From contig JACRMN010000027.1 of NCBI GenBank assembly GCA_016214955.1, positions 1-64,000 on the forward strand: a stretch of 64,000 bases of DNA, written 5' to 3'. Made by a program: the position numbers and the translations under genes. The notes under the pieces were generated by a model that saw only the letters and a program-made list of their open reading frames with translations, was not told the DNA's origin and did not search any database. The stretch is from Deltaproteobacteria bacterium. Its GTDB lineage: Bacteria; Myxococcota; Myxococcia; Myxococcales; Anaeromyxobacteraceae. Below, piece after piece: positions 26,325 through 62,502 of the stretch (the first letter of the stretch is position 1; each line of letters opens with the position of its first letter).

Positions 26325-26534
26325 GGCGAGCAGTGTGCATCACCCGGAGGGGAGGGAAAAGCGTTCGCGCCGTCCGGAAAGCACTCGCTCGCGGCGCCGC
26401 AGGATTTGCAGTAGCCTGCGAAGTCGGAGCCCGCGCGCGTGAACGGATGGCGCTGCGCGGCCCAGGGGGAAGCGAACTTACGTGGGAAACCCGGTTCGAC
26501 CGACCGGTGCGCGCCGCGGCGGCCTGCCGCCGGA

Positions 26535-26550
26535 CGGTACGCACCTTGCT
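26535..26550 (+). promoter_or_regulatory. Sigma-54 promoter before the activator-like gene
   Basis: CGGTACG-CACC-TTGCT matches TGGCACG-N4-TTGCW at nine of eleven fixed positions, with GG and GC ten bases apart. The predicted start is about 26561, only four bases before the ATG at 26565, so the transcript would be nearly leaderless. The rest of 26325-26534 shows no feature I can name. Confidence 0.6.
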
Positions 26551-26564
26551 ACGCGCGTGCCCAG

Positions 26565-27962
26565 ATGAGTCGGCCCCGCATCCTCGTCCTAGACGGCGAT
26601 CAAGCCGCGCGCTCGCGCCTGCGCGACGAGCTCATCGGCGCCGGGCTCGACGCCGCCGACGTGGCCAGCGCCGACGAGGCCCTGGCAGCGGTCCCCAGCT
26701 TCCGGCCCGACGGGCTGGTGGTGGGGGTGGGCAGCGGCGTCGCCGGCTTCCTGCACGCGCTGCGCTCGGGCGGCTCCCAGGCCCCGGTGGTGCTCGTGGC
26801 CGGCGCCGAGGAGCTGCCTGCCGCGGTGCAGGCGCTGCGGCTCGGCGCCGAGAGCTTCGTCCCGCGCCCCGCCAGCGGCCCGCACGTGGCGGTGGCGCTC
26901 GAGAAGGCGCTCGCCGGGCAGCGGCTCCGGCAGGAGGCGGCGCAGCTCCGGCAGCAGGCGCGCGGCCGCCAGGCCATCGTCGGCGGGACGCAGGAGATCC
27001 AGACCGTCCACGAGGTCATCCGCCGCGCCGGGCCCACCAAGGCCACGGTGCTCATCCAGGGCGAGACCGGCACCGGCCGGGAGCTGGCGGCCCAGGCCAT
27101 CCACGAGGCCTCGCCGCGGCGCGACGGCCCCTTCGTGCGGGTGAGCTGCGCCGGCCTCTCCGAGCCGCTGGTGGAGAGCCAGCTCTTCGGCCACGAGGCG
27201 GGCGTCATCCCCCACGCGCCCTGGCGTGCCGAGGGGGCGATCGCCGCTGCCGCGGGTGGCACGCTCTTCCTGCACGAGGTCTCGAGCCTGCCCGCGCAGG
27301 CCCAGGTGCGGCTGCTGCGCTTCCTGCAGCACGGCGAGTACGAGCGGCTGGGCGGCACCGACACCCAGCGGGCCGACGTCCGGGTGGTCGCCTCGACGAT
27401 GCGCGACCTGGCCGACGAGGTGCACCGCGGCCGCTTCCGCGACGACCTCTACTACAGGCTCTCGGTGGTCAGCCTGGCGCTGCCGCCGCTCCGCTCGCGC
27501 AAGGCCGACATCCCGGCGCTGGCCGAGCACTTCCTCTCGCGGGCCGTCCGGGCCCGCGGCGGCGAGCCTCGCGCCATCTCGCCCGGCGTGCTCTCCGCCC
27601 TCTACGCCTACGAGTGGCCCGGCAACGTCCGCGAGCTGGCCGCGGCGCTGGAGGCGGCGGTGGAGCGCAGCCCGGGGCGCGAGATCGGCACCCAGCACCT
27701 GCCGCCCGTCCTCCAGGGCGCCGGCCCGGACGACGCCGGCAGCGCCCTCATCCCCGGCGCCACCCTGGCCGAGATCGAGCGCGAGGCCATCCTGCGAACG
27801 CTGGAGGAGGTGGCCGGCTCGACCGCGCGGGCCGCGCATATCCTCGGGATCAGCGTGCGAAAGATCCAGTACAAGCTGAAGGAGTACCGGGGCGGTCACC
27901 TCGGCCGCCGCCGCCGGCCAGGAGACCCGCAGGGGCTCCCTCGCGCCATCGGCAGCCAGTAG
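26565..27962 (+). CDS. Degenerate NtrC-family sigma-54 activator-like protein
   Basis: 465 residues in NtrC order: receiver (~1-115), AAA+ domain (~135-385) and Fis-type helix-turn-helix (~400-445). Key residues are changed throughout. The phospho-acceptor Asp is Gly54 (PDGLVVG) and the receiver Lys is Arg101. Walker A reads GETGTGRE with Arg172 for Lys. The GAFTGA sigma-54 contact loop is GVIPHA (213-218). Walker B reads TLFLHE with His237 for Asp. Sensor I Asn is Met. The DNA-binding helices (GSTARAAHILGISVRKIQYKL) and the WPGNVREL sensor II are intact. It is unlikely to hydrolyse ATP or open sigma-54 promoters; a DNA-binding repressor or anti-activator is more plausible. The frame is unbroken over 1.4 kb, so it is not a pseudogene. 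Confidence 0.88.
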   Translation: MSRPRILVLDGDQAARSRLRDELIGAGLDAADVASADEALAAVPSFRPDGLVVGVGSGVAGFLHALRSGGSQAPVVLVAGAEELPAAVQALRLGAESFVPRPASGPHVAVALEKALAGQRLRQEAAQLRQQARGRQAIVGGTQEIQTVHEVIRRAGPTKATVLIQGETGTGRELAAQAIHEASPRRDGPFVRVSCAGLSEPLVESQLFGHEAGVIPHAPWRAEGAIAAAAGGTLFLHEVSSLPAQAQVRLLRFLQHGEYERLGGTDTQRADVRVVASTMRDLADEVHRGRFRDDLYYRLSVVSLALPPLRSRKADIPALAEHFLSRAVRARGGEPRAISPGVLSALYAYEWPGNVRELAAALEAAVERSPGREIGTQHLPPVLQGAGPDDAGSALIPGATLAEIEREAILRTLEEVAGSTARAAHILGISVRKIQYKLKEYRGGHLGRRRRPGDPQGLPRAIGSQ

Positions 27963-28270
27963 CGACGCTGCGCCAACCTTGCGCCGGTGCTTCGCACGGG
28001 GCGGAAACCTTGCGCACGCTCCGCGCCCGGCCCCTGTTCGGCGCACCCCGGATGGCGGCGGGCCCGGCGCGCGCCCTGCGCGCATCCGCCACCCGCCCCG
28101 GCCCGGATTTGGCGAGGGAAAGCCGCAACCTTGCGTCACCACGGCCTTCTCGTGGCAACCGCAGGGCATTTCCGGAAGCTCGGTCCCGGCCGGCTGTGGA
28201 CCGCGGGATGCACGGGTGCCCGGGGCCCGGGCACGCGAGGGGTAGGCGTGTGGCCCGCTGGAGGTCCGAC
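27963..28270 (+). promoter_or_regulatory. 308-bp regulatory region before the tetrahaem operon with three AACCTTGCG repeats
   Basis: Three exact copies of AACCTTGCG occur on the plus strand at 27975-27983, 28006-28014 and 28127-28135, each preceded by a GC-rich GC-N2/3 context. A weak -24/-12 element (TGGACCG-CGGG-ATGCA, 28197-28212) would start transcription near 28223, 48 bases before the ATG. The repeats then sit about 90 to 250 bases upstream of the start, where enhancer sites normally lie. No open reading frame here is convincing. Confidence 0.5.
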
Positions 28271-34055: not shown

Positions 34056-34071
34056 AGCAAGGGTCGTGCCT
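34056..34071 (-). promoter_or_regulatory. Sigma-54 promoter for resB-ccsA
   Basis: Minus strand AGGCACG-ACCC-TTGCT differs from TGGCACG-N4-TTGCW only at the first base, with GG and GC ten bases apart. The predicted start is near 34046, about 29 bases before the resB GTG. One of the best -24/-12 matches in the window. Confidence 0.75.
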
Positions 34072-34101: not shown

Positions 34102-34206
34102 AAAGCAATCCGGCGAGACCCCCGCGATCGGGGCTCAGCCCTGCAGCGCAGGAATGGCCCAGGCCCTCCGGGACAGCGCAAAGCTTTCGCGGGGTTGGAT
34201 TGCTTT
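34102..34206. promoter_or_regulatory. AAAGC-type repeat array upstream of resB (possible enhancer sites)
   Basis: AAAGCAATCC at 34102-34111 and its exact reverse complement GGATTGCTTT at 34197-34206 flank a palindrome AAAGCTTT at 34180-34187. Relative to the predicted resB start (about 34046) they lie at roughly -56, -134 and -151. That distance is typical for binding sites of sigma-54 activators. Confidence 0.5.
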
Positions 34207-62486: not shown

Positions 62487-62502
62487 AGCAAGGACGGTGC
62501 CG
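62487..62502 (-). promoter_or_regulatory. Sigma-54 promoter for the tolC-like gene
   Basis: Minus strand CGGCACC-GTCC-TTGCT: GG and GC ten bases apart, five of seven -24 positions and a perfect -12 box. The predicted start is about 62477, giving an ~80-base leader before ATG 62397. Confidence 0.7.

Follow-up and report, generated by a model that had tools for sequence, protein, structure and literature searches.

A degenerate NmpR paralogue as a possible negative-feedback brake on the low-oxygen and cytochrome response of Anaeromyxobacteraceae

TyrR of E. coli is an NtrC-like regulator with a different sensory domain, which represses and does not activate sigma-54 promoters, and we know of no intact partner that shares its site. 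NtrC of R. capsulatus, NtrC of Caulobacter and VpsR of V. cholerae lack the GAFTGA motif and act at sigma-70 promoters (PMC10274813); each is the sole or principal copy, and activators are among them. A different starting point is NmpR of Myxococcus xanthus and its Anaeromyxobacter orthologue (PMC11841059, PMC6211767). In the relay that controls NmpR, the presence of oxygen goes with an active NmpU and an inactive NmpS, and the last step is phosphorylation of NmpR by NmpS (PMC11841059). The rise of the target mxan_4236 in hypoxia depends on NmpR. In gel shifts, M. xanthus NmpR binds GCGCA-N5-TGCGC, a box that is needed for sigma-54-dependent expression, and its non-phosphorylatable D54A variant binds DNA like the wild type (PMC11841059). 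The NmpR regulon of Anaeromyxobacter was stated to be unknown (PMC11841059).

In this study, we analysed a degenerate paralogue of NmpR encoded at 26565..27962 (+) of the window, i.e., the whole 64-kb stretch of DNA under analysis. As the preliminary description reported, the frame is open, with a length of 465 aa. In Pfam, the protein has a sigma-54 AAA+ domain (PF00158, E 7e-56) plus an AAA lid, a helix-turn-helix of the HTH_8 family (PF02954, E 4e-10) and a receiver domain with a weak score (27.7 bits, below the gathering cut-off of 30.2). An AlphaFold2 model retains the fold (mean pLDDT 79, pTM 0.49), and in Foldseek it resembles NtrX, NtrC1, NtrC4 and VpsR (NtrX 5m7o, E 3e-35). With its AAA+ domain and Fis-type helix-turn-helix, the protein is an NtrC-family enhancer-binding protein by descent.

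Alignment places G54 (26724-26726) at the phospho-acceptor position of the receiver domain (26565..26918, +), where the second acidic residue D11 and Lys101 are also lost; the features of a phospho-regulated response regulator (acceptor Asp, acidic pair and Lys) are absent. In the AAA+ core (26976..27476, +), R172 replaces the Walker A Lys (GETGTGRE), GVIPHA occupies the GAFTGA position (residues 213-218, 27201-27218), H237 replaces the Walker B Asp (TLFLHE) and M279 replaces the sensor I Asn (DVRVVASTMR). The preliminary description listed the five changes D54G, K172R, GAFTGA to GVIPHA, D237H and N279M, all of which are present in the alignment, but its claim that every residue required for activation had been lost was too broad. 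Although GAFTGA, the Walker A Lys and the Walker B Asp of a functional sigma-54 activator are missing, the arginine fingers (FRDDLYYRL with both arginines, 27435-27461, +, inside the AAA+ core) and Glu238 are kept and are invariant across the aligned orthologues. The Fis-type helix-turn-helix lies at 27762..27893 (+), and its recognition helix, SVRKIQYKLKEY, is nearly that of NmpR.

Orthologues of the degenerate protein were found in 19 of 24 Anaeromyxobacteraceae genomes and are located in related cytochrome-oxidase neighbourhoods. The caa3 oxidase genes coxBACD recur upstream, and resB/ccsA or a cytochrome/Fe-S/NrfD operon recurs downstream, often with a macro-domain gene between. All 19 frames are open, the one in G014 reaching the contig end. 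GAFTGA and the sensor-I Asn, as well as Lys101 and Asp11 of the receiver, are lost in every orthologue, and the losses of Asp54, the Walker A Lys and the Walker B Asp are lineage-specific. The preliminary description had named orthologues with intact motifs as a refutation, and the outcome was mostly in favour of its reading: none has GAFTGA, but many retain D54 and some retain the Walker A Lys, the Walker B Asp or both. In genus g3, Asp54 and the Walker A Lys are retained in most orthologues, and the Walker B Asp in some. Since the motif losses recur in orthologues and none of the motifs is missing from the full-length intact paralogue of the same genome, the losses are not due to chance. No degenerate copy was detected in the remaining five genomes, two of which are >90% complete; the gene is absent from both species of genus g2 (one represented by a complete chromosome) and from G010, and G017 and G018 are incomplete genomes. 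The degenerate gene is therefore dispensable. Two observations were made elsewhere. Myxococcaceae bacterium Chersky_835 encodes an NmpR-like protein (L154:3001-4344) with intact Walker motifs and a broken receiver and GAFTGA (HE-GSPGGATG), perhaps an independent degenerate paralogue, and in another family of the order (G024, L219:3198-7724), two more NmpR-like proteins with intact GAFTGA are encoded close together.

The degenerate proteins share, on average, 49% identity in the receiver, 70% in the AAA+ core and 86% in the helix-turn-helix; among the intact paralogues of the same genomes, the corresponding values are 90%, 93% and 95%. Rough pairwise dN/dS estimates (NG86) for the degenerate gene range from 0.10-0.85 in the receiver and 0.04-0.48 in the AAA+ and lid to 0.00-0.14 in the helix-turn-helix. 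By these estimates, purifying selection on the degenerate protein is strongest at the DNA-binding domain. Taken with the loss of GAFTGA and sensor I throughout the clade, this agrees with the earlier suggestion of selection for DNA binding without sigma-54 activation. Asp293 and Ser344 (both 19/19) and Tyr349 (18/19) are fixed in the degenerate clade only, which argues for a maintained function because plain decay would not yield such residues. The clade evolves fast, with a stem of ~0.85 changes per site and a progressive loss of motifs. These features and the receiver dN/dS of up to 0.85 would be expected if a redundant copy were slowly decaying with its frame still kept, but we consider this very improbable, because all 19 frames are open, clade-specific residues are fixed, the promoter and box described below are conserved and the helix-turn-helix dN/dS is near 0. 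A strain-specific pseudogene was ruled out by the open frames, the helix-turn-helix dN/dS of 0.00-0.14 and the presence of orthologues in 19/24 genomes. The duplication may be older than the family or specific to it: the tree places the degenerate clade outside all NmpRs with a support of 100/100, but a family-specific origin was not rejected by an AU test (p 0.10).

The intact paralogue is present in 23 of the 24 genomes, in one of them (G012) only as a fragment at a contig end. It has all motifs intact and shares 50-54% full-length identity with the degenerate protein. In the source genome, it is encoded on another contig (C19:32929-34296, L058), convergent to genes for a receiver/kinase hybrid, a double-receiver protein and a globin-coupled kinase that matches AfGcHK (PDB 5ohe, E 8.7e-65). 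Because it adjoins this oxygen-sensing kinase (AfGcHK/NmpU) and the gene order is that described for nmpRSTU in Anaeromyxobacter (PMC11841059), we identify the intact paralogue as NmpR. The degenerate protein has the domain order of the M. xanthus and Anaeromyxobacter proteins (PMC11841059, PMC6211767), and its helix-turn-helix is nearly that of the family's NmpR. The degenerate gene is located apart from nmpSTU, in the vicinity of oxidase or cytochrome-maturation genes, and its motifs are broken; it is thus a paralogue of NmpR rather than NmpR itself. Unlike NmpR, its product lacks GAFTGA, the sensor-I Asn and the receiver chemistry and, in the source genome, also the Walker A Lys and Walker B Asp. 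The two proteins share 84% identity in the helix-turn-helix in the same genome, and the next best enhancer-binding protein among the 25 matches reaches 50%. The true activator postulated in the preliminary description has thereby been found: an intact NmpR with nearly the same recognition helix.

The palindrome CGCA-N5-TGCG was derived from upstream regions alone, before the published NmpR box was known to the analysis, and it equals the EMSA-proven consensus GCGCA-N5-TGCGC. Counted within 150 nt upstream, with C/T and G/A allowed at the box ends and dinucleotide shuffling as the control, the box was found upstream of 17/19 degenerate genes (shuffled mean 0.26) and 22/23 nmpR genes (shuffled mean 0.39). 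Its arms are conserved and its five spacer bases vary; the G005 orthologue has no box upstream. Tandem boxes are spaced 19-20, 28-30 or 40 bp start to start, which agrees with the NmpR 15-mers described earlier, whose gaps of 5, 14-15 and 24 nt amount to 20, 29-30 and 39 bp start to start (PMC11841059). In the source genome, an NmpR-type box with one mismatch to CGCA-N5-TGCG, CGCAGGATTTGCA, lies at 26398..26410 (+), at -167 from the degenerate gene. Both other species of the genus have the same box with a perfect right arm, CGCAGGATTTGCG, upstream of the gene. The distance from box to promoter is 138 bp in the source genome versus 56-57 bp for the perfect box in these relatives.

The case for the box rests on comparative data, because boxes are not enriched within the 64-kb window alone, where the observed count is below the shuffled mean and the box at 26398..26410 is not significant by itself. 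The region 27963-28270, singled out in the preliminary description, holds two NmpR-like boxes, each with one mismatch and weak alone, since single one-mismatch boxes are expected by chance in this GC-rich window. They are GCGCCAACCTTGCGC at 27970..27984 (+), a possible NmpR box upstream of the cytochrome/Fe-S/NrfD operon with a similar box at the matching place in G002, and GCGGAAACCTTGCGC at 28001..28015 (+), which is 31 bp from the first, near a tandem NmpR spacing. In genus g6 (L049, L055 and L048), NmpR-like boxes are absent between the degenerate and cytochrome genes, and an Fnr-like palindrome, TGATC..GATCAA, is present instead.

The degenerate gene has a predicted sigma-54 promoter, GGTACGCACCTTGCTA, at 26536..26551 (+). 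A strict sigma-54 form occurs ~30 nt before the start of 15/19 degenerate genes (shuffled mean 0.005), and all 19 show GG-N10-GC by eye at about -26 to -43. Transcription from this promoter would begin ~5 nt ahead of the ATG, giving a nearly leaderless transcript. Most orthologues likewise have a very short leader, as do three nmpR genes from other families (G035, G036 and G040). Since the nmpR orthologues of G035 and G036, in other families of the order, carry sigma-54 promoters with boxes, the degenerate gene may have inherited an ancestral activator-driven promoter. Like NmpR targets, the degenerate gene and the predicted targets share the same DNA box and have sigma-54 promoters (PMC11841059, PMC6211767). 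We strongly infer from these patterns that the box is shared and that the degenerate gene is controlled by NmpR. With the sigma-54 promoter and the NmpR-type box, neither of which appeared in the preliminary description, its generic idea of a decoy becomes that of a specific feedback loop.

A search for a box followed by a sigma-54 site with 45-105 nt between them gave 29 matches in the 24 genomes; the reversed pattern matched only twice. The genes behind the matches, named by reading the translation of the first ORF and thus resting on patterns, include resB (7), multihaem cytochromes, peptidyl-prolyl isomerases and, in two genomes, hemA. Upstream of resB-ccsA (cytochrome c maturation, system II) in the window, a predicted NmpR box with one mismatch, GCGAAAGCTTTGCGC, is located at 34176..34190 (-) and a putative sigma-54 promoter, GGCACGACCCTTGCT, at 34056..34070 (-). 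In six relatives, a perfect or near-perfect box precedes the resB sigma-54 site by 106-108 nt, and in most of these a second box follows at a distance of 30 bp. In L112 (G022) and L113 (G021), hemA (glutamyl-tRNA reductase) is preceded by an NmpR box and a sigma-54 promoter, and haem synthesis may belong to the NmpR regulon. The window also contains a sigma-54-like site, GGCACCGTCCTTGCT, at 62487-62501 (-), with no NmpR box.

Boxes also occur in settings of a different kind. In many genomes of the family, the nmpR boxes lie on or just behind a -10-like sequence, TGCATAAC, which suggests autorepression of nmpR. In L058 (2208-2312), a pair of NmpR boxes ~40 bp apart precedes a Crp/Fnr-type regulator gene near nmpSTU. 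Such pairs are found at matching places in L061, L065, L066, L067, L070, L072 and L074, and in most genomes an Fnr-type box, TTGATC..CAA, lies between the paired boxes, which suggests cross-talk of two oxygen regulators at this gene. As in R. capsulatus NtrC, Caulobacter NtrC and VpsR, the sigma-54-contacting loop is missing from the degenerate protein and the DNA-binding domain is kept, and regulation at sigma-70 promoters is conceivable. The protein could be a conventional repressor or activator at nmpR, the Fnr-type gene and the adjacent oxidase or cytochrome operons. Enhancer-binding proteins without GAFTGA do act in this way (PMC10274813), the boxes overlap or follow the -10-like sequence at the sigma-70-like nmpR promoter and flank the Fnr-type box, and the degenerate gene is close to the caa3 oxidase operon in most genomes. 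We nevertheless regard such a sigma-70 role as unlikely. The genomes without a detected degenerate gene (G003, G008, G010 and G017) keep the boxes at nmpR and the targets, so the boxes belong to NmpR, are not specific to the degenerate protein and make the latter an add-on. Furthermore, a search of the caa3 oxidase promoter for a box gave no conserved one. The NtrC and VpsR cases also differ in that here an intact paralogue reading nearly the same DNA coexists with the degenerate protein and, apparently, controls its gene.

We propose that the degenerate protein is a non-activating NmpR paralogue that serves as a negative-feedback brake on the low-oxygen/cytochrome response, an explanation to which we give about an even chance. 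It builds on features read from the sequences themselves: the degeneracy and its conservation, the shared helix-turn-helix, the boxes and the sigma-54 promoters. From published work on NmpR, we infer that NmpR binds and activates the promoters of the degenerate gene and of the regulon. In low oxygen, NmpR with sigma-54 would turn on cytochrome-maturation, multihaem-cytochrome and haem genes and, through the box and sigma-54 promoter, also its degenerate paralogue. The paralogue would undergo no normal phosphorylation and would neither contact nor remodel sigma-54, but it would read CGCA-N5-TGCG. It is reasonable that it binds without phosphorylation, because NmpR D54A still binds DNA. The paralogue would then compete with NmpR at the regulon boxes, the nmpR promoter and its own promoter, and/or mix into NmpR oligomers, for which the well-kept AAA+ surface leaves room. 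Occupation of the boxes without activation would damp or time the response. Antagonism of NmpR is plausible, and the loop as a whole, in which NmpR and sigma-54 induce a paralogue that takes up the shared enhancers without activating, conserved across the family, is put forward tentatively, at slightly less than even confidence.

Several points count against the brake: the gene is dispensable, its box in the source genome is imperfect and farther from the promoter than in relatives, the G005 orthologue has no box, and the AAA+ domain is conserved beyond the needs of simple DNA occupation, leaving room for another activity. Mixed rings of enhancer-binding proteins are known, e.g., HrpR/HrpS, and the paralogue might instead be an accessory subunit of NmpR hexamers, modulating their action or even assisting it by contributing arginine fingers in trans. 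The invariance of FRDDLYYRL and the Walker A glycines and the predicted integrity of the AAA+ fold point in this direction. However, the best-conserved part of the protein is the helix-turn-helix, which a pure subunit would not need, and the Walker A Lys is lost too in some lineages; a subunit role is accordingly doubtful in our view.

A literature search that covered few subscription journals found no described enhancer-binding protein antagonised by its own paralogue, nor this protein or pair. If true, the negative-feedback brake would be a clear natural example of an enhancer-binding activator that governs its own brake, a degenerate paralogue acting against it at shared enhancers. Our analysis further yields a predicted regulon of NmpR in Anaeromyxobacter, comprising cytochrome c maturation, multihaem cytochromes, peptidyl-prolyl isomerases, hemA and an Fnr-type regulator, and bears on respiration and cytochrome supply in Anaeromyxobacter.
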